A DNA stretch of 64,000 bases, taken from contig NZ_PPXD01000007.1 in assembly GCF_002909375.1 (NCBI RefSeq), forward strand, positions 310,001 through 374,000. Direction: 5' to 3'. The stretch is from Cryobacterium zongtaii. GTDB lineage: Bacteria; Actinomycetota; Actinomycetes; Actinomycetales; Microbacteriaceae. The notes under the pieces were generated by a model. It was given only the letters and a program-made list of their open reading frames with translations, searched no databases and was not told the origin of the DNA. Shown here one piece after another: positions 284 through 54,066 of this stretch (position 1 is the stretch's first letter; each line of letters opens with the position of its first letter). The position numbers were made by a program, and so were the translations under genes.

Positions 284-1327
284 ATGACAGTGCGAATAAC
301 GACCAGCCTGCGAGTATCCAGACGGATCCCGCTGCTGCAGACCCTCAAGACCTCGGTCGCCGTGGTCCTGGCCTGGGTAATCTCGCTGTGGCTCCTGCCC
401 GGCGAGCTGCCCATCTTCGCCGCGATGGCCGCCATCTTCGTCGTGCAGCCCAGCATCAACCAGTCCCTGGGACGGGCCCTGGAACGCAGCCTCGGCGTCG
501 TCGGCGGAGTCCTGGTCGCTCTGGGCATCGGGCTGTGGTTCGGACAGGACAGCTGGATCGTCCTGGCGGCGATCGTGCTCTGCATCCTGCTGGCCTGGGC
601 CCTGAAGCTGTCGCCTGGCTCGGCGAATCAGATCCCGATCAGCGCGATGCTCGTCCTCGTGCTGGGTGCCGCGACACCGACCTACGCCAGGGACCGCATC
701 ATCGAGACCATCCTGGGTGCCGCGATCGCCGTGATCGTCAACGCGTTGATCGTTCCGCCGGTGCTGCTCACGCCCGCACACGACGCGGTGACCCGGCTCA
801 CCCTGGAGGTGGCCGCGACCTTCGACCGGGTGGCCACCGCGCTGCTGAGCCCGCAGAAGTACGCCGATCTGGAGAGCCTGATGATCCAGGCCCGACTACT
901 GCGGCCCATGCTGGCCAAGGCCGAACGGGCCATCAGCCAGGCCGAGGAGAGCCTGACACTCAATCCCCGCCAAAGCAGGCACCGCGAGGTTCTCGACGCC
1001 GACACCGACCTCTACGCCCGCCTGGTGCCCCTGGTCACCCGGGCACTGGGCATGACGAGAGCGCTGCGGGACCACTACGACGACAGCCTGCACCTCGAGC
1101 CCACCGTGCAGGCCTTCGCCATCGAGCTGGAGAGGGCCGCGCACGATCTGCGATTGCTCACCGTGCCGGCGGACGGGAAGCCGTCCGCCTCGGCGGCTCC
1201 GGGGATCGAGCCGCTCGCCCTGACGGCGCCGCTGATGATCATGACTCCACATCCCCAGCACTGGATCTTGATCGGCGCCCTGATGGAGGACCTGCGACGG
1301 GTGCGCGAGGAGATCACCGGCGAGTAG
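284..1327 (+). CDS. FUSC-family membrane protein (aromatic acid exporter-like)
   Basis: The first ~150 residues form several hydrophobic segments (TSVAVVLAWVISLWLLPG, LPIFAAMAAIFVVQPSINQS, VVGGVLVALGIGLWFG, SWIVLAAIVLCILLAWAL, AMLVLVLGAA, ILGAAIAVIVNALIVPP). The conserved 'QPS...S..rar.R..G...G' segment after the second helix is typical of FUSC/ArAE proteins. The C-terminal ~200 residues are soluble and helical. Relatives export aromatic acids or similar anions; the substrate here is unknown. The ATG at 284 is used because it leaves a normal N-terminus. In-frame GTGs at 239, 242 and 290 are also possible, and TAGCCT at 230 lies exactly 12 nt before GTG 242. It is followed closely by another membrane gene on the same strand. 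Confidence 0.75.
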   Translation: MTVRITTSLRVSRRIPLLQTLKTSVAVVLAWVISLWLLPGELPIFAAMAAIFVVQPSINQSLGRALERSLGVVGGVLVALGIGLWFGQDSWIVLAAIVLCILLAWALKLSPGSANQIPISAMLVLVLGAATPTYARDRIIETILGAAIAVIVNALIVPPVLLTPAHDAVTRLTLEVAATFDRVATALLSPQKYADLESLMIQARLLRPMLAKAERAISQAEESLTLNPRQSRHREVLDADTDLYARLVPLVTRALGMTRALRDHYDDSLHLEPTVQAFAIELERAAHDLRLLTVPADGKPSASAAPGIEPLALTAPLMIMTPHPQHWILIGALMEDLRRVREEITGE

Positions 1328-1330
1328 GCT
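1325..1330 (+). promoter_or_regulatory. Candidate -10 box for a leaderless transcript
   Basis: TAGGCT overlaps the stop codon of the FUSC gene, and its first base lies 12 nt before ATG 1337. No ribosome-binding site precedes that ATG. The spacing would place transcription initiation at the start codon. The same 12-nt offset is seen at 26339, 32998, 48881 and 61477. No clear -35 box is seen. Confidence 0.4.
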
Positions 1331-1336
1331 GCCCGC

Positions 1337-2029
1337 ATGTCGAGCAGCCCGGAGCCCGAGCGCCACGCTGCGCCGACCACGGCGACGACGGCCCGGCGAA
1401 CGGTTCTGTCCACCCGGCGGCTGGAATCGTACACTGACGGCGTCTTCGCCATCGCGGCCACGCTGCTGGTGCTGAACGTCTCCGTGGACAGCATCGGCGT
1501 CGTGACGTCGAACGCCGAGTTCCTACGGCAGGTCAACGCCTTGGCACCGAGCATCCTGAACGTGGTCATCAGCTTTCTGCTGCTCAGCCTGCTGTGGCTC
1601 ATTCACGTGCGTCAGTTCGAGTTCATCCCCCGTGTGGATACCACCATCATCTGGCTCAACAATTTCCGCCTTCTCGGCGTGGTCCTGGTTCCGTTCACGA
1701 CGAGTCTCAACGACGAACTCAGCCGGTACCTGCTGGGCCGCACGCTGTTACCCCTGAACTTCTTCGTGATCCTGCTCTTCAGCACCTGGCAGTGGTTCCA
1801 CGCCAGCTCTCCCCGCAGACAGCTCGTGCATGGCGCATCCGCCACCGCCGTTCACAACGCACGGGTGAACAATGTCAGCGCGCTTTCACAGTCGTTCGCC
1901 GTCGTACTGCTGGCGACGCTGGTCGGTTCCCCCGCGTTCTTCCTGTTCGCCCTTGATCCGCTCATCGCCCTGGTGTTGCGACGACTCGGGGTCCTGCGGC
2001 CGACGCCGGACGAACCGGTGGCCGGGTGA
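1337..2029 (+). CDS. TMEM175-family (DUF1211) membrane protein, putative potassium channel
   Basis: This 230-residue protein has about six hydrophobic segments. Residues ~29-45 (RLESYTDGVFAIAATLLVLN) match the signature first helix of the TMEM175/DUF1211 family, normally R-x-x-x-F-S-D-G-V-F-A-I. Here the FSD triad reads YTD, so the pore-lining Phe is Tyr. Bacterial TMEM175 proteins are tetrameric K+ channels with this helix lining the pore. The gene lies 9 nt after the FUSC gene and converges on yceI, with a strong hairpin between them. Family assignment is solid; ion selectivity is inferred. Confidence 0.8.
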   Translation: MSSSPEPERHAAPTTATTARRTVLSTRRLESYTDGVFAIAATLLVLNVSVDSIGVVTSNAEFLRQVNALAPSILNVVISFLLLSLLWLIHVRQFEFIPRVDTTIIWLNNFRLLGVVLVPFTTSLNDELSRYLLGRTLLPLNFFVILLFSTWQWFHASSPRRQLVHGASATAVHNARVNNVSALSQSFAVVLLATLVGSPAFFLFALDPLIALVLRRLGVLRPTPDEPVAG

Positions 2030-2069
2030 CGGGCGGAACCGCACACAGAGACAACACAACCCAGACACA

Positions 2070-2101
2070 ACAACGGGGACCCCACTGGTGGGATCCCCGT
2101 T
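2070..2101. terminator. Bidirectional hairpin terminator
   Basis: A 15-nt arm (CAACGGGGACCCCAC) and its near-perfect complement (GTGGGATCCCCGTTG) flank a 2-nt centre, with one mismatch that is a G-T wobble on one strand. It lies between the convergent TMEM175-type gene and yceI and can serve both. There is no long T-tract on either side. Confidence 0.75.
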
Positions 2102-2117
2102 GCGCGATGCCGAGTGC

Positions 2118-2678
2118 TTAGGCCTGGAGGGCACCCTGCAGTTCGAGGGTGATGGTGACCTTGTCGCCCAGCAGCATGCCGCCGGTCTCGAGGGCCGCGT
2201 TGTAGGTGAGACCGAAGTCTTCACGGTTGACCTGGGTCGTGGCGGTGGCGCCGAACTTGTAGTTGCCGTAGGGGTCGCCGCCGAAGCCACCGAACTCGAA
2301 GTCGAAGGTGACGGGCTTGGTGACGCCCTTGATGGTGAGGTTGCCGTCCACGAGGTAGTCGCCGCCGACGACGCGCACTCCGGTCGACACGAAGTCGATG
2401 GTCGGGTAGGTCTCGGCGTCGAAGAAGTCGCCGGTGCGCAGGTGGCCGTCGCGGTTGGCCTCGTTGGTGTTGATGGACGCGACGACGGCGGACGCCGTGA
2501 CGCTGGTCTCGAGGGGGTTCTCGGTGGTGACGAAGGTGGCGTTGAAAGTCTCGAACGTGCCCTTGACCTTGCTGATCATGATGTGACGGATGCTGAAGCC
2601 GACGACGCTGTGCGTGGGGTCGATGGTCCAGGTTCCCGCTTTGTAGCCCGGGATGGTTGTGGTGGTGATGTCGCTCAT
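2118..2678 (-). CDS. YceI family protein
   Basis: The 186-residue product has the YceI lipocalin-like fold signature: GTWTIDPTHSVVGFSIRHIM near the N-terminus, then KVKGTFETFNATF, alternating beta strands, and a C-terminal NREDFGLTYNAALETGGMLLGDKVTI. Family members bind long-chain isoprenoids or amphiphiles in a beta barrel. There is no signal peptide, so this is the cytoplasmic form common in Actinobacteria. ATG 2678 is chosen because AGGAG precedes it at normal spacing. The palindrome TATGC-AAGC-GCATA lies 48-61 nt upstream and probably binds a regulator. Confidence 0.92.
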   Translation of the reverse strand: MSDITTTTIPGYKAGTWTIDPTHSVVGFSIRHIMISKVKGTFETFNATFVTTENPLETSVTASAVVASINTNEANRDGHLRTGDFFDAETYPTIDFVSTGVRVVGGDYLVDGNLTIKGVTKPVTFDFEFGGFGGDPYGNYKFGATATTQVNREDFGLTYNAALETGGMLLGDKVTITLELQGALQA

Positions 2679-2725
2679 GGTGCTCCTCAAGTCCGTGGGG
2701 GCGGTGGATTCGCTGCCCTCAGGTA

Positions 2726-2739
2726 TATGCAAGCGCATA
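2726..2739. promoter_or_regulatory. Palindromic operator candidate TATGC-N4-GCATA
   Basis: This is a perfect inverted repeat, TATGC-AAGC-GCATA, in the divergent region between yceI (minus) and the DUF2236 gene (plus). A nearly identical element, GTATGC-ATAC-GCATAC, sits upstream of the LLM oxidoreductase at 12469-12484. The size and symmetry suit a dimeric MarR/TetR-type repressor; no such gene lies next to it. Confidence 0.5.
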
Positions 2740-2852
2740 GGACTACAGGATATTCCATCACCGACCAGAAAAGATGTGAACGATTCAGGAACGCACGGAG
2801 AACCCGACTCCTCGGCGGGGAAGTAGGCTCGGCCTGTCAAGAGGAGTCCACG

Positions 2853-3716
2853 ATGCCGACAGCGTCCCCGTCCAGTCCGGCGTCCCTGTCGAGCCCGGCA
2901 CTGAGCATCCACGATGTGGCCCCGGAAAGCGTTCTGGTTCTCGGCGGCGGTCGCGCGATCCTCCTACAGCTCGCGAACCCCGCCGTCGGGCACGGCGTCG
3001 CCAGGCACAGCGACTTCGCGACCCGACCGCTGAGTCGACTGAGCGGCACGCTCTCCTACGTATACGCAGTCACCTGCGGCTCGCCCATTGACCGGGCCGC
3101 GGCCGTGCGCCGGGTCTCCCTGGCCCATCGCCCGGTGCACGGCAGCCAGAGCGTCGGCGCCCCGGCGTACAACGCCTTCGATCCGCAGTTGCAGCTCTGG
3201 GTTGCCGCGACCCTGTACGAATCCGCGACCCGTGTGCACGAGCTGGTCTACGGACCGCTCACGGATACCGACGCCGAGTCCGTCTACCGTGACTACGGCG
3301 TGCTCGGCACCGCCCTTCAGGTACCGCCCGGGCTGTGGCCCGCGGACCGGGAGGCTTTCGCGGCGTACTGGAGCCGCGCAACGTCCGGCCTGGCGACCGA
3401 CGAGACGACCCGATCGGTGGCCAGGCAACTGCTGCACCCCACCACCGGACCGGTCTGGTTGCGCCTGGCGATGCCGCTGGGGCGCCTGGTCACCACGGGG
3501 CTCCTGCAGCCCGACGAACGAGCCCTCTTCGACCTGCCCTGGTCGCCCGGACGCCAGCGCAGGTACAACGCCGTGATCGGCGTCATCCGTCTGATCTATC
3601 CGCGCCTGCCGACGCGGCTGCGGCAGGCCCCCATGCGGCACTACCTTCGTGCCGGCCGATCCCTCGCTGCGAGGGATCGCGCGACCGGGCAACCTGGCGG
3701 CGCCGACGGGCGTTGA
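2853..3716 (+). CDS. DUF2236 / MpaB-like oxygenase family protein
   Basis: This 287-residue protein has the DUF2236 pattern: an early 'LGGGRAILLQLANPAVGHGVARHSDF' region, then HRPVHG, then the DPQLQLWVAATLYESATRVHELVYG helix. Relatives include the latex-clearing protein Lcp and mpaB-type oxygenases, which carry haem in an all-helical fold; the His in the GHGVA segment is a plausible haem ligand. ATG 2853 is preceded by GAGGAG. TAGGCT at 2824-2829 is a plausible -10, giving a short leader. It is divergent from yceI across the 2726 palindrome. The substrate is unknown. Confidence 0.8.
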   Translation: MPTASPSSPASLSSPALSIHDVAPESVLVLGGGRAILLQLANPAVGHGVARHSDFATRPLSRLSGTLSYVYAVTCGSPIDRAAAVRRVSLAHRPVHGSQSVGAPAYNAFDPQLQLWVAATLYESATRVHELVYGPLTDTDAESVYRDYGVLGTALQVPPGLWPADREAFAAYWSRATSGLATDETTRSVARQLLHPTTGPVWLRLAMPLGRLVTTGLLQPDERALFDLPWSPGRQRRYNAVIGVIRLIYPRLPTRLRQAPMRHYLRAGRSLAARDRATGQPGGADGR

Positions 3717-48892: not shown

Positions 48893-50443
48893 ATGAGCAG
48901 CCCAGCTGAGCAGTTCCCGACCGACCCGGAGGACCCGGGTCACGATGCCCGCAGCAACGCGGGCGGACCCGATCCCAGCCCGAATCTCAACCCGAAGCAC
49001 AGCCCTGAAGCAGGTGCCGATGCCGGTGCCGCCGCGCAGGCCCACCGGCGCCGCCGCAGCCTGCAGGAGCAGGCGCAGGCCACCCTCGCGCGGAAGGTCG
49101 CGAAGGTGAAGAGAGCCCATCGCAAGATCGCGAAGGCGACCGCTAAACGTGCTCGCGCACTGGCCGAGCTGCAACGGTGGAGTAGCGACCCGGCCATCGC
49201 GAAACTGCTCAACCCCGACTACGCCGCCGAGTCGGCCCGGGGGCCGGTCCGCACCGACGCCGACGCGAGCCCGCGGAAGGTCGCGGCGTGGGAAGACCAG
49301 GAAATCGCCCGCCGCACGATCACGACCGAGGTCGCCTGCTCGCTGCGCCTGGCTGATCGCACGGCGGAGAACCTGATCGGTGAATCCTCCTTGTTCGCCG
49401 GCCCGATGCAGGCCACTTTGACGGCGATGAGTTCCGGCGAGATCAGTTACCGGCATGGCCAGGTGTTGATGGAGCAGCTCAGCTTCCTCCCGCTCGAGGA
49501 GGCCGCCGAGTTCGAAGCGAGGTTGCTGCCCGTGGCGAAAGACCTCACGGTCGGCAAGCTCGCGGTGAAGGCCCGGCGGATGCGGGAGCGGGCGCACCCG
49601 GAGACCCTGACCCAACGGGCCACCGCCGCGGTTGCCGAACGCGGGGTCTGGTGGGAGGGTCGGGCCGATGGCATGGGCACTCTGACCTGGTACGGCACCG
49701 CGGTGCAAACCCAGGCCGCACTCGACAGGTTGACCAGCATCGTCGAAACCACCCAGGCCTTAGAACGACACGACGCGTCGATTCCCGAGATGGACCGGCG
49801 CACGATCGGCCAGATCTGCGCCGACGCGATGGCCGACCTGGTCCTGGACGGGGTCACCCCCGCCGGCACCGGCGGCGGCATCCGCGGCAGCGTGATGGTC
49901 ACCGTCCCGGTCTTCACCCTGATGGGCCGAACCATGGAACCGGGATTCCTGGAAGGGTACGGGCCGATCCCGGCCGACACCGCCCGGGAGATCGCCGCCG
50001 GCTGCCCCAGCTTCATTCGGATACTCACCCACCCGGAGACCGGGGCCGTGCTTTCGGTCGGAAAAGAACACTACACAGCCCCCGCTGATATGCGCCGTTG
50101 GGTTGCGCTGCGGGACGGCACCTGCCGTTTCCCGGGCTGCACCCGGCCCGCATCCCGCAGCGATATCGACCACACCATCGCCCGAGAACACGGCGGACCT
50201 ACCGACTTCGACAACCTGGCCCACCTCTGCCGCGCCCACCACCGGCTCAAACACCAAACACTATGGGCCGTGGTGCAAGAACCCGGCGGGGTGCTGCGCT
50301 GGACCTCCCCGGCCGGGGAAACCCACCGCACCTACCCCGAAACCACCCTCGGGCCACCACCCACCCTGGCCCCCACACCCAAACCACCAGCGACACCGGC
50401 ACGGCCGCGGACAAGCGACCTGCCCGACGATCCGCCGTTCTGA
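48893..50443 (+). CDS. DUF222 / 13E12-type HNH endonuclease-motif protein
   Basis: This 516-residue protein has an N-terminal Ala/Arg-rich helical region, the DUF222 domain (~90-370) and a C-terminal HNH motif: CRFPGCTRPASRSDIDHTIA then EHGGPTDFDNLAHLCRAHHRLKH. The final ~60 residues are Pro/Thr-rich. The family, first named from the mycobacterial 13E12 repeats, is often multicopy in Micrococcales genomes. A homing or defence nuclease role is possible but unproven. GATTAT lies 12 nt before the ATG, fitting a leaderless start. Confidence 0.9.
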   Translation: MSSPAEQFPTDPEDPGHDARSNAGGPDPSPNLNPKHSPEAGADAGAAAQAHRRRRSLQEQAQATLARKVAKVKRAHRKIAKATAKRARALAELQRWSSDPAIAKLLNPDYAAESARGPVRTDADASPRKVAAWEDQEIARRTITTEVACSLRLADRTAENLIGESSLFAGPMQATLTAMSSGEISYRHGQVLMEQLSFLPLEEAAEFEARLLPVAKDLTVGKLAVKARRMRERAHPETLTQRATAAVAERGVWWEGRADGMGTLTWYGTAVQTQAALDRLTSIVETTQALERHDASIPEMDRRTIGQICADAMADLVLDGVTPAGTGGGIRGSVMVTVPVFTLMGRTMEPGFLEGYGPIPADTAREIAAGCPSFIRILTHPETGAVLSVGKEHYTAPADMRRWVALRDGTCRFPGCTRPASRSDIDHTIAREHGGPTDFDNLAHLCRAHHRLKHQTLWAVVQEPGGVLRWTSPAGETHRTYPETTLGPPPTLAPTPKPPATPARPRTSDLPDDPPF

Positions 50444-50478: not shown

Positions 50479-53397
50479 CTACGGAGCGATCGTGAAACCG
50501 GGGCTGACCCCCGCCGCGAGGGTCCCCGACGTCGCGGTGAGCGTGTAGTTCCCCGCCCGATTCACCCGGCAACCGGCGAACGTCGCCACACCGGACACCG
50601 CCGCACGAGGGTTACTGGTACACGTGAGAGTGGCGCCTGCCGGGGTCGTCAGCCTGACAGTGACCGAGGCCGAACTCGCAACGACGTTGCCGCTCGCATC
50701 CTGGATGGCCACGCTCGGCTGGGTGCCCCAGACCTGGTTCACCGACCCACCCGACCCAGCCGCAATGAAGACCAGCTTGCTCGCGGCACCGGGCGTGACC
50801 GTGAATGCGGGACTCACGGTCGTCAGGGTGCCGGCGGTTGCGGTGAGTGTGTACGTACCGGCCTTGTCGATGCTGCATCCCGAGAAGATGAATCCCCAAC
50901 CGAAGTACGACGGCGCGGGATTTGTCGCGCAAGCCAGTGTTGCGCCGGCAGCATTGGTCAGGGCGAGCGTGGCCTGCCCGGTCGCGGTGACAGCGTTACC
51001 GCCTGCGTCTTGCACGGTCACTGCCGGCGTGTTTCCGAACGTGGTCGCCGAGGTCGTCGACCCTGGTGAAGAGACGAAGACCAGCCGGGCAGCGGGCCCG
51101 GTCGCGACCGTGAAGCTTGCGCTCGTGGCGGCGGTGAGATTGCCGGACACCGCCCGCAGCGTGTAGCTGCCGGCGCGGTCGACGGCGCAGCCGGCGAATG
51201 CGGCTGCGCCCGACAGCGGGGAGACCGGGTTCGTCGTGCAGGTCAGAGTGGCTCCGTTTGCGGTGGTCAGGCTCAGTGTCACCGGCGTGGTGCCGGTCGC
51301 GATGTTGCCGCCGGCGTCCCGCACCACGACCGTGGGTTGGCCGGAGAACGCCACGCCGCCGGTCGACCCACCGGGGTTGACGCTGAAAGCCAGTTTCGCT
51401 GCAGGACCCGGGGTCACCGTGTAGCTGCCACTGACCGCCGGGGTCAGGACGCCGGATGTGGCGGTCAGCGTATAGCTGCCTGCCTTGTCGATCCTGCAGC
51501 CGGAGTACGTCGCAACCCCGGACGCTGCCGCCTTGGGGTTTGCTGTGCAGTACAGCGTGGCCCCGGCAGCGGTCGTGAGCTTCAGGGTCACTGCGGCGGT
51601 GCTCGCGACGGTGTTGCCGCCGGCGTCCTGAATCGCGACCGCGGGTTGGGTGTCAAAGGTGGTGTTGTACCGGGTCGTGCTCAGTGCCGACGTGAAACCC
51701 AGTTTCGTGGCGGGTCCGACCGCGATGGTGAAGCTTGCGCTCACGGCCGCCGTGAGTGTTCCCGAGCTGGCGGTCAGGGTGTAGGTGCCCGCCCGCCCGA
51801 TAGAGCAGCCAGCAAATGCGACGGTCCCGGTGCCCGTGGCCGGGTTCGCGCTGCAGGCGAGGGTTGCCCCCGCCGCTGTGGTGATCGCCAGGGTGACCGG
51901 CATGGTGGTGGCGACGGCGTTGCCACCCGCGTCCCGTACGGCGACCACGGGCTGGGTGCCAAAAGCTCTCCCGCCGGTTGAGCCGGACGGGCTGGTGGTG
52001 AAGACGAGGCGAGCGGCGGGACCAGCGCTGATCGCGACGGATCCGCTCACGGCCGCGGTCAACCCGGCCGAGGTCGCGGTCAGGGAGTAGCTCCCGGGCT
52101 TGGTGATCTTGCAGCCGGCGAAGGTAGCGGTTCCGGCCACGGCAGCTCTCGGGTTGGCCGTACAGGTGAGGCCGGCCCCTGCTGCGCTGGTCAGGCCCAG
52201 GGTGACGGCCGCTGTGCTGCTGACGGTGTTCCCGCCGGCATCCTGGATCGCCAGTATCGGCTGGACGGCAAAGGCTGTGTCCACCGATGTGGAACCCGGT
52301 TGGGCCGTGAAGACCAGCTTCGAGGCCGGGCCCGTCGTGATGGTGAATGTGGCGCTGAGAGCGGCGGGAAGTGCGCCGGAACGGGCGGTCAGGGTGTAGG
52401 TTCCGGCCCGGTCGATGCGGCAGCCGGCGAATGACGCCCGGCCGGAGACGGCGGCTACCGGATTGGCCGCGCAGGCCAGGGTTGCCCCAGCCGGATTGGT
52501 CAAGGTCAGGGCCACGGTGGCGGTGCTCGACGTGGTTTCCCCTTCGGCGTTCTGGATGGCCACGACGGGTTGACGGGCCCAGGCGACGCCGCCGGTTGAC
52601 CCGGAGGGGGCGGTCGTGAAGGCCAGTTGGGTTGCGGGGCCGGCGGTCTCCCAAGAGCTGCCGGCCATGGTTGTGGAGGCGCTGAAGGCGGCGGTCACCT
52701 CGGTTGGCGGTGCCGCCACCAGTGTGACGGCGATCAGTGTCGCAACGACTCCCACGGCGGCCAGTTCGGCCGGAGCAACCCGCGGGCCCCTCCCCTGGCG
52801 GGACGGTCGGAAGTGACGTCCACGGGGCCGGCGCGGCCGCGGGTTCGCGGCGCCGTCCAGCGCGACGACGACGACGGCCGCGGCGGTGAGGATCAGCCAC
52901 AGCACTAGCGGAGTAATGGCCGTCGTGGTCAGCCAGAAGGCGGGCAGCCCGATCCAGGGGATCAGGAGCTGGGCTTGGCTGATAATGTCACCCCGGTTCA
53001 GGGGGCTGCTGTCCACGCTCTGGTTGGCGTCACCCGCCGTGATGAGCGACCCGTCCTCGTTGGCCCCGATGACCCGGTGCAGCATGGTGCCGGCGGTGGC
53101 AGATCCGGCCGGGGCGGGGAAGCTCACGACGCGCCCGAGGGGCGGTGGAGTGTCGGCCTCCATGGGCTCGGAGAGCACGACGTCGCCGGTGCTGATCAGC
53201 GGTTCCATGGACCCGCTCTGCACGATCGAACCCGTGAGGCCGGTGAGCATCGGCAGGGTGGCGCAGGCGCCCAGGGCAAGCATCAGCACCAGGTAGGCCC
53301 TCGACAGGGTGGCGATCGTCAAGAATCCCCAGCCCCCGCGCACAACGCGGGGCTGGCGACCGACGGTGCTGTCGGTGGATCCGCTGTCGAGGGACAC
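50479..53397 (-). CDS. SipW-like signal peptidase I fused to seven Ig-like repeats
   Basis: The 972-residue protein has two parts. Residues 1-~180 are a signal peptidase of the SipW/ER type: transmembrane helix ~30-57, SGSMEPLISTGDVV with catalytic Ser63, TMLHRVI with His107 in place of the bacterial Lys, GDAN with Asp123, and a second helix ~151-180. A third helix (~212-232) leads to AAFSAST (237-243) and SSWETA. This resembles the SipW-type cleavage region of the adjacent TasA-like protein. Residues ~253-972 are seven ~103-residue Ig-like repeats, each with two Cys. The start is GTG 53397. The enzyme probably processes the neighbour and may cleave its own linker, releasing the repeats. Confidence 0.85.
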   Translation of the reverse strand: MSLDSGSTDSTVGRQPRVVRGGWGFLTIATLSRAYLVLMLALGACATLPMLTGLTGSIVQSGSMEPLISTGDVVLSEPMEADTPPPLGRVVSFPAPAGSATAGTMLHRVIGANEDGSLITAGDANQSVDSSPLNRGDIISQAQLLIPWIGLPAFWLTTTAITPLVLWLILTAAAVVVVALDGAANPRPRRPRGRHFRPSRQGRGPRVAPAELAAVGVVATLIAVTLVAAPPTEVTAAFSASTTMAGSSWETAGPATQLAFTTAPSGSTGGVAWARQPVVAIQNAEGETTSSTATVALTLTNPAGATLACAANPVAAVSGRASFAGCRIDRAGTYTLTARSGALPAALSATFTITTGPASKLVFTAQPGSTSVDTAFAVQPILAIQDAGGNTVSSTAAVTLGLTSAAGAGLTCTANPRAAVAGTATFAGCKITKPGSYSLTATSAGLTAAVSGSVAISAGPAARLVFTTSPSGSTGGRAFGTQPVVAVRDAGGNAVATTMPVTLAITTAAGATLACSANPATGTGTVAFAGCSIGRAGTYTLTASSGTLTAAVSASFTIAVGPATKLGFTSALSTTRYNTTFDTQPAVAIQDAGGNTVASTAAVTLKLTTAAGATLYCTANPKAAASGVATYSGCRIDKAGSYTLTATSGVLTPAVSGSYTVTPGPAAKLAFSVNPGGSTGGVAFSGQPTVVVRDAGGNIATGTTPVTLSLTTANGATLTCTTNPVSPLSGAAAFAGCAVDRAGSYTLRAVSGNLTAATSASFTVATGPAARLVFVSSPGSTTSATTFGNTPAVTVQDAGGNAVTATGQATLALTNAAGATLACATNPAPSYFGWGFIFSGCSIDKAGTYTLTATAGTLTTVSPAFTVTPGAASKLVFIAAGSGGSVNQVWGTQPSVAIQDASGNVVASSASVTVRLTTPAGATLTCTSNPRAAVSGVATFAGCRVNRAGNYTLTATSGTLAAGVSPGFTIAP
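50482..52641 (-). repeat. Seven tandem ~309-bp repeats encoding Ig-like domains
   Basis: Seven units of 102-104 codons each start GPA(A/T/S)(K/R/Q)L and contain QP.VA(I/V)QDA.GN, GATL.C..NP, then (F/Y).GC.I..AG.YTLTA. The two Cys about 17 residues apart occur in every unit and could form a disulfide within each domain. Similarity is clear at protein level while DNA has diverged, so the array is not a recent duplication. Confidence 0.9.
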
Positions 53398-53442: not shown

Positions 53443-54066
53443 CTAGTTGCTGTTCTGCAGCTCCCAGACGAGGTCGATGCTGGTGGAGGCGCCCTGCAAC
53501 GCGTCGACCTGCAGCTGGGTCAGTCCGGTCGCATCGAAGGTCCAGGTGCCCTTGTAGGTCTTGGACTCCCCGCTGGCGTTTCCTGTGGTCGTCCACGCGC
53601 TACCACCGGTGGCGTAGTCGCTATTGACCGTGGACAGCGTGGCCAACGACGCTGCCGGCAGGACCGGGACCGCCGGGTCGATGACGAAACCCGTGCAGTC
53701 GGCGAAGCTCCCGCCGGTGCCCTGTTCGATCTTCAGCTTGATGTATTTCTCCAGTCCCTGCGCCGAGGGCGACAGGTTCTGCACGTAGGCCTTGACTACC
53801 CCGGCGACGGACGACGATGCCGTCACGACGAGGCACTTCTCGCCAGTGTCACCAGGCGTGACATTGGTGACCTGGAAACCGGCGGTGCCGTTGTCGTCGT
53901 CCGTGAGGGCCACGCTTCCGGTACTCCAGCTATTGCCGGGGTTTCGGGTCGAGGATGAGAAGGCGGCGTTCGACGCCTGGAACACCATCGCGCCGGCGAG
54001 CAGGATGGCGGCCGGGCCAACACCAACGGTCACAATGCGCCGGGCGAGGGTACTGGGTTTACGCAT
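53443..54066 (-). CDS. SipW-dependent secreted protein (TasA/camelysin-like)
   Basis: The 207-residue protein has an N-terminal signal (basic MRKPSTLARR, then VTVGVGPAAILLAGAMVFQ) and the SipW-type cleavage region ASNAAFSSSTRNPGNSWSTG (31-50). The mature part is beta-rich with two Cys, in GEKCLVV and FADCTGF. TasA-like proteins form extracellular fibres or matrix; here, assembly is inferred only from the signal type. ATG 54066 follows AAGGA. A promoter TTGACA-N17-TAACTT and a ~159-nt structured leader precede it. The signal peptidase gene follows after 45 nt. Confidence 0.85.
   Translation of the reverse strand: MRKPSTLARRIVTVGVGPAAILLAGAMVFQASNAAFSSSTRNPGNSWSTGSVALTDDDNGTAGFQVTNVTPGDTGEKCLVVTASSSVAGVVKAYVQNLSPSAQGLEKYIKLKIEQGTGGSFADCTGFVIDPAVPVLPAASLATLSTVNSDYATGGSAWTTTGNASGESKTYKGTWTFDATGLTQLQVDALQGASTSIDLVWELQNSN

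Follow-up and report, generated by a model that had tools for sequence, protein, structure and literature searches.

The window analysed in the current work is a stretch of 64,000 nucleotides from Cryobacterium zongtaii (contig NZ_PPXD01000007.1, positions 310,001 to 374,000), and carries a gene which encodes, in this order and as a single protein, a SipW-type signal peptidase, a third hydrophobic helix, the sequence VTA followed across a predicted cleavage site by AFSASTTMAGSSWETA, and seven repeats. This gene belongs to a widespread Actinomycetes family in which the domain behind the junction (the cargo) is exchanged and the junction motif is longer than a cleavage site should need and is like the donor strand at the N-terminus of TasA fibre subunits, none of which was within view of the original prediction, made from the letters of the window. 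We propose, with a probability of roughly one in three (0.35), that these Actinomycetes proteins are self-serving signal peptidases, in which a protease, an internal copy of the cleavage site and donor strand of its substrate, and an exchangeable cargo are present in one chain that would cut itself and load its cargo onto the TasA-like fibre of the neighbouring gene.

According to published accounts of Bacillus subtilis, SipW cuts TasA at TWA-AFND, with Phe at P2’, and this cleavage site hinders the ordinary Escherichia coli enzyme LepB (PMC10269814). In TasA fibres, residues 28-38 are reported to complete the fold of the next subunit, with contacts involving F29, I32 and F39, and removal of these residues spoils the fibres (PMC9674648). 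TapA, which possesses an immunoglobulin (Ig) domain and an N-terminus (AFHDI) like that of TasA (AFNDI), is described as initiating filaments by donating its strand, and the tapA stop codon overlaps the sipW start (PMC10151520). For CapP of Bacillus cereus, which accompanies TasA/CalY filaments as an accessory protein, the model of its authors includes processing by SipW (PMC13082335).

The gene organisation given in the original prediction for positions 50479-53397 was confirmed, and the strand, which had not been indicated, is minus. The relevant features are listed below, together with the evidence used to assign them.

50479..53397, minus strand: fused gene (972 amino acids, GTG start) comprising a SipW-type signal peptidase, a third hydrophobic helix, a TasA-like junction and seven repeats.
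52840..53298, minus strand: peptidase domain, residues 34-186, with two hydrophobic helices and the catalytic domain (TIGR02228; structure matches to SEC11C/SEC11A).
53209..53211, minus strand: codon of the catalytic Ser63 (invariant in both peptidase alignments).
53077..53079, minus strand: codon of His107 (invariant in both peptidase alignments).
53029..53031, minus strand: codon of Asp123 (invariant in both peptidase alignments).
52708..52770, minus strand: third hydrophobic helix, approximately residues 210-230, predicted N-in/C-out (AlphaFold2 model, hydropathy, Lys/Arg bias).
52642..52692, minus strand: junction AAFSASTTMAGSSWETA, residues 236-252, with a predicted cut between Ala236 and Ala237, Phe238 at P2’ and a proposed donor strand (conservation).
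50482..52641, minus strand: seven tandem repeats of 102-103 amino acids, adhesin-like, with two Cys each (repeat comparison, Pfam, profile search).
53443..54066, minus strand: TasA-like gene for a predicted fibre subunit of 207 amino acids, located upstream of the fused gene and ending 45 bases before it (8aur fold match).
53917..53967, minus strand: AAFSSSTRNPGNSWSTG of the TasA-like protein, covering signal cleavage and the N-terminal strand (comparison with the junction).

Intact orthologues of the fused gene are present in three other genomes of the genus Cryobacterium (loci L185, L186 and L187), by which an assembly artefact or a mis-called fusion is ruled out.

The junction is identical to the corresponding region of the neighbouring TasA-like protein at 10 of 17 positions, a level that was reached somewhere in 4 of 300 shuffles of the fused protein. 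The resemblance claimed in the original prediction is thus borderline as a lone pair, and is placed above chance because the junction is conserved in homologues. A scan of named genomes returned 174 relatives, the best 80 of which were taken: 30 are from Actinomycetes (L033-L061, L064) and the other 50 from Bacillota, except for L100 (Eggerthellaceae) and L109 (Dehalococcoidia). A junction of the same form was recognised by eye in 30 of the 30 Actinomycetes loci, 25 of them with cargo and five ending soon after it, and a junction hidden Markov model (HMM), built from the same 30 loci in which it finds junctions, detected no fused junction in the 50 non-Actinomycetes loci, its only match being a free substrate-like open reading frame (ORF) in L100. 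A search of the order matched 49 of 248 genomes (63 places listed), and 29 loci besides that of the window were examined (L003-L031), of which six contain junction and cargo, three the junction only and 18 no junction, L023 being masked and L025 a different kind of fusion; four of the nine fusions found in this way duplicate named loci and were counted once. A search of the class matched 31 of 394 genomes and provided 27 new loci (L113-L139), divided into 13 with junction and cargo, 13 without junction and one that is unreadable (L122), and a family search for the cargo (8 of 199 genomes matched) added the fusions L145 and L147. The original prediction was to be refuted by homologues lacking a conserved AAFS motif at the junction, an outcome that did not arise: 52 Actinomycetes fusions with a junction of the same form were collected, being 30 from named genomes, five from the order search, 15 from the class and family searches, that of the window and L185 from the genus. 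Their cargo comprises two kinds of repeats, ice-binding, LamG and other domains.

Six of the 52 fusions end no more than approximately 25 residues past the junction. Of these, L058, L059, L060 and L064 (Oceanitalea/Georgenia) and L011 consist of the peptidase, the third helix and the strand, and end about 20 residues past the proposed cut. The sixth, L055 (Arthrobacter echini), lacks the first helix and the linker, retains the junction after the second helix and has no free-substrate ORF upstream.

The pattern A-x-[FW]-[TSA]-x-x-[TS]-x(4,6)-[FW], which was written after reading these sequences and therefore describes rather than tests them, occurs at the junction of 38 of the 52 fusions, which together comprise 30,909 residues and do not contain it at any other place. 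In the other six-frame ORFs of these loci (for the most part not genuine genes; 681,299 residues) it was found 62 times, 42 times in the N-terminal region of ORFs matching a free-substrate HMM and 20 times elsewhere. Individual junction positions were scored in 35 fusions divided by cargo or clade into 11 equally weighted groups, resulting in Ala at P1 in 10.0 and Ala, Val or Ser at P3 in 10.9 of the 11 groups, Phe or Trp at P2’ in all 11, and Thr at P6’ in 9.7. The pattern is completed by a second aromatic residue, 10-11 positions beyond the first, and the conserved stretch extends to approximately P12’-P13’. Both P6’ and this second aromatic residue lie beyond the known reach of signal peptidases.

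The cut between Ala236 and Ala237 was placed by comparison with the site described for TasA, TWA-AFND (PMC10269814), and the junction very probably serves as a processing signal of the SipW type. The spacing of 10-11 residues in its F...[FW] arrangement, equal to that from F29 to F39 in the published description of TasA, is the reason for reading it as a cut site followed by a strand, and the junction is likely to combine a SipW cleavage site with a TasA-type N-terminal donor strand. A simpler explanation, which we consider unlikely though not negligible, accepts the signal and its cleavage and holds that the freed cargo is just secreted or wall-bound, the likeness to TasA reflecting recognition by SipW only; it is in line with the fit of P3 to P2’ to the SipW site described for TasA (PMC10269814) and with the A-F-W type signal that, by eye, a free repeat protein of a different genome (L151) has of its own, yet it leaves unexplained why Thr at P6’ and the aromatic residue 10-11 positions after the first are both kept.

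Constraint on the junction was assessed by the ratio of nonsynonymous to synonymous substitution rates (dN/dS), L187 being too close to the window for an estimate. For the 17 junction codons this ratio is 0.05 with L185 and 0.01 with L186, values that are rough because dS is 1.6 and 2.7, near or past saturation. The corresponding ratios (L185 and L186, respectively) are 0.10 and 0.17 for the peptidase, 0.15 and 0.23 for the repeats, 0.24 and 0.27 for the third helix, and 0.29 and 0.41 for the linker.

A connection between junction and free substrate is also found in gene order, with an ORF matching the free-substrate HMM located directly upstream, on the same strand and within at most 234 bases, in 48 of the 52 fusions, the others being L050, L054, L055 and L008. 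An HMM of the junctions alone retrieves substrate-like ORFs from the same loci; conversely, an HMM of 39 free N-termini matches 19 of 36 fusions, always at the junction and nowhere else, 17 of these matches being at E<=0.11 (0.034 for the window). Its other matches at E<0.5 among 7,865 ORFs are duplicate loci or apparent further free substrates beside sipW genes. An NCBIfam search with the junction alone, and with the N-terminus of the neighbour alone, found nothing useful.

With respect to the enzyme, Ser63, His107 and Asp123 are located where the original prediction had placed them, and its assignment to the SipW/archaeal type was borne out by TIGR02228. The three residues do not vary across the 10 rows of alignment A1 or the 27 rows of A3, and the presence of Ser and His, rather than Lys, in the catalytic positions together with Asp is that of a signal peptidase I of the endoplasmic reticulum (ER)/archaeal type. 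The NCBIfam model TIGR02228 (sigpep_I_arch) matches the full fused protein with E 3e-13 and 49.9 bits, slightly below its cut-off of 51.85, and exceeds this cut-off with residues 13-365 (52.3 bits) and in the genome search (54.3 bits), a borderline result overall; it matches 27 of the 27 members of A3 at E<=0.1. The equivalog model for Bacillus SipW, NF046067, gave the fused protein 32.6 and 35 bits, far from its cut-off of 190. An AlphaFold2 model of residues 13-365 (mean predicted local distance difference test score, pLDDT, 67.4) has human SEC11C (E 3.6e-4) and SEC11A (E 9.8e-4) as its best PDB matches. The enzyme is, on the strength of its sequence, an ER/archaeal (SipW) type signal peptidase, and is predicted to cleave signal peptides. 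It is the only SipW-type peptidase found in the genome of the window, with a single TIGR02228 place and one strong match to the peptidase query, the second match (E 0.046) lying inside a frame that appears RecA-like by eye.

The third helix corresponds to residues 210-227 in the AlphaFold2 model (block pLDDT 56-72). Lys and Arg are commoner before than after this helix in 46 of the 49 fusions (of 52) in which it was found by script, and this bias fits an N-in, C-out orientation. The helix is clear in most named fusions, its hydropathy is weak (1.4-1.6) in L039 and the Georgenia group, and L055 lacks it. The linker between the second and third helix varies from 16 to 95 residues across the fusions, which would in principle be sufficient for cutting in cis or in trans.

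The neighbouring protein was modelled by AlphaFold2 from an alignment of 18 sequences (pLDDT 70.5, with residues 1-50 below 50). Its top PDB match, and the only one at E<=0.001, is the cryo-electron microscopy structure of the B. subtilis TasA fibre, 8aur (E 1.3e-5, probability 1.00, template modelling score 0.55 by query length, root-mean-square deviation 6.4). This is followed by bundling pili of Pyrobaculum, an archaeal TasA-type pilus (E 0.003), FimG structures, one of them with a FimF donor strand (E 0.006-0.008), and an unrelated enzyme (E 0.014). Sequence models did not recognise it: Pfam Peptidase_M73 (PF12389) gave 12.6 bits against a cut-off of 22.5, the TasA model NF046066 matched only one of 18 relatives (E 0.033), and a profile of the TasA-like alignment gave matches at chance level only among PDB sequences. 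By its modelled fold, the neighbour is a TasA-like protein with a predicted role in a fibre, and it is the one copy of this kind found in the genome. The fold model applies to the neighbour in the window; at other loci, ‘TasA-like’ denotes a match to the N-terminal HMM, with alignment A4 in addition for 17 loci. The fused and TasA-like genes are flanked on the other strand by valS-like and HNH-type genes (named by eye), and the module therefore seems to consist of two genes. The HNH-endonuclease-like gene occupies positions 48893-50443 (plus strand) of the window and is convergent with the fused gene.

In the predicted topology, the first helix crosses the membrane from inside to outside, the catalytic domain is external, the second helix returns to the inside, the linker is cytoplasmic, and the third helix passes outwards again as an internal signal peptide, by which the junction would be exposed on the outside. 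The proposed mechanism starts from a junction whose sequence takes the same form as the N-terminal region of its operon’s TasA-like protein. The enzyme, or a sister molecule, would then cleave the Ala236-Ala237 bond in the way that SipW cleaves TasA, setting the repeats free. Finally, and less surely, the freed cargo would start with AFSASTTMAGSSW, a TasA-type donor strand, and this may be inserted into a TasA-like subunit, by which the cargo would form the beginning or the tip of the fibre, or decorate it, in a TapA-like role; in other genera the same chassis would carry an ice-binding, LamG or other domain. Cutting of the junction by the enzyme itself, in cis or in trans (the first two steps), appears reasonably probable; docking of the freed cargo by its strand on the TasA-like fibre (all three steps) is put forward tentatively, at the probability given at the outset. 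As to the original prediction of an enzyme-substrate fusion, this part is supported by a junction kept in front of differing cargo, by its low dN/dS and by the finding of a single SipW-type peptidase in the genome.

The alternative that the original prediction had offered, in which the C-terminal domain is held at the surface if uncut, stands as a serious rival, even if we think it the less probable outcome and rather unlikely. Here the junction would stay uncut, and the third helix would hold the donor strand and cargo at the membrane, starting or anchoring a TasA-like fibre as its subunits mature. The six forms consisting of the peptidase and strand with little behind them agree with such an anchor, as do the free-substrate ORF upstream of five of these six and the extension of the conserved stretch beyond what a cleavage site would be expected to need. 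Conservation of Ala at P1 and of a small residue at P3 would be unneeded for anchoring, and a donor strand tied to the end of a helix may have no room to insert.

Several observations weigh against self-cutting and fibre loading, in addition to the borderline likeness of the single pair. In the searches described above, 31 related peptidases lack the junction. In the six forms without cargo, the junction cannot serve to release a domain. The pattern is missing from 14 of the 52 fusions, and L120 has Met at P2’. The seven codons preceding Ala236 have a dN/dS of 0.40 with both L185 and L186, so the non-prime side is not specially kept. Seventeen of 36 junctions are unmatched by the HMM of free N-termini, two of its 19 matches are very weak (0.4 and 3.9), and this likeness test is not independent, because it was the junction HMM by which the free N-termini had been gathered. 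In the structure model the junction has a pLDDT below 50, and its entry into the active site is neither supported nor ruled out.

The seven repeats of the window are 102-103 amino acids each, with pairwise identities of 45-63%, and no repeats were reported by a tandem repeat finder applied to the DNA. The number of repeats given in the original prediction was thereby found again, and their Ig-like nature received weak support, no Pfam model being matched above its cut-off. The commonest Pfam match of single repeats at E<=0.5 is Invasin_D3, in three of seven repeats, the best of them scoring 17.6 bits (E 0.0058) where the cut-off is 33, so that an Ig-like assignment by Pfam failed; a profile of the repeats matches a large adhesin structure, 6xi3 (E 0.0062). 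These two weak resemblances make an Ig-like fold of the adhesin type plausible.

Pfam was run on ten fusions in order to identify their cargo, and gave ice-binding domains in L038, L039 and L052 (E 4e-26 to 6e-35), Laminin_G_3 in L056, L006 and L061, Big_7 repeats in L044, CBM_5_12 below its cut-off in L010 (E 0.0028), and no cargo match in L005 and L008. By eye, the cargo of L005 resembles a carbohydrate-binding domain and that of L053 an ice-binding domain; a further fusion with an ice-binding domain, L222, was found late and is outside the counts of 52. As a control, 30 loci with free ice-binding proteins were taken from the family, seven of which are uninformative (six read out of frame and one with an internal domain). 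A script pattern found the junction motif in none of the 23 readable free proteins, and the peptidase likewise in none, while the full motif is present in three of the five ice-binding domains fused to a peptidase (L039, L052 and L222), the other two (L038 and L053) having GVFT in place of A-x-F-T, a variant invisible to the script pattern. The motif therefore goes with the fusion, and the possibility that it belongs to the cargo is ruled out by its absence from all 23.

Some loci stand apart. At L008/L143 (G064) the peptidase is fused, by eye, to a TasA-like domain, and the opposite strand nearby carries a free TasA-like ORF; L008 is placed among unfused enzymes in the peptidase tree, and is perhaps an independent fusion. 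L147 (G679) contains repeats like those of the window and an apparent LamG domain, with one in-frame TAG, and is possibly decayed or affected by a sequence error. The free repeat protein of L151 (G751; reverse complement, approximately 1285-3441), which has its own A-F-W type signal, is related to the cargo of the window and adjoins a small protein whose A-F-A-Y-W signal is similar; a further class of SipW substrates may be represented here. The different fusion of L025 (G239; ORF 1-1536) consists of a signal peptidase, a short hydrophobic stretch and a further domain, contains no A-F junction, and ends in LEYTG and a helix, which looks by eye like a sortase signal.

Among the best 80 of the 174 relatives, Cryobacterium sp. 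N22 (94% over 250 query residues) and C. lactosi (88%) put the window within Cryobacterium or next to it. Some peptidase match is present in 18 of 57 genomes of the genus, and a gene like that of the window in five of the 57, its own included; three of the copies are at 95%, 89% and 79%, and the fifth, located 49 bases short of a contig end, is at 56% (residues 18-199). With this distribution the gene is accessory within the genus. A tree was made of 80 peptidase domains from 133 columns, with 30 of its 77 inner branches open; in it, the window groups with two Cryobacterium fusions and one from Lacisediminihabitans (100/92), and the label ‘fused’ requires eight changes, at least three of which are forced by well supported branches. 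Because of these changes, tails have probably been gained or lost several times and cargo exchanged. The same changes, along with the in-frame stop of L147 and the loss of the first helix and linker in L055, could be taken as signs of chance or of a vestige, that is, of an old fusion of peptidase and substrate genes lacking a present function; this is highly improbable, since reading frames are intact in three relatives, dN/dS is low in the two that are distant enough, and the motif is kept with differing cargo over several families.

Compared with known systems, the fused protein is like B. subtilis SipW in its catalytic Ser and His, its operon with a TasA-type substrate and the aromatic P2’ residue of that substrate. 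To our knowledge, B. subtilis SipW lacks a third helix, a junction and a cargo. The neighbour is like TasA and the camelysins in predicted fold and in its AAF-type N-terminal region, and differs from them in not being recognised by the TasA and Peptidase_M73 sequence models. TapA belongs to a SipW operon, begins with a TasA-like strand and has an Ig domain (PMC10151520), to which the junction motif, as a predicted strand after cleavage, and the plausibly Ig-like repeats would correspond here; TapA is a separate protein, whereas the candidate described here forms one chain with the peptidase and differs in its domains among genera, and a TapA-type family was absent among the five NCBIfam matches of the fused protein up to E 1. 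CapP, as described, is encoded by a separate gene and has a predicted helical N-domain and no peptidase, unlike the fused gene (PMC13082335). Searches of the open-licence literature listed no described enzyme-substrate fusion of this kind, in keeping with the original prediction.

The presence of enzyme, substrate signal and cargo in one chain makes it testable whether a signal peptidase processes itself in cis, and also how TasA-type fibres outside Bacillus would be started and functionalised without a TapA. If the proposed mechanism is true, a one-protein system would make, tag and load the tip of a fibre without a separate chaperone, and the exchange of cargo, including ice-binding domains, suggests a natural modular system for display on bacterial fibres.

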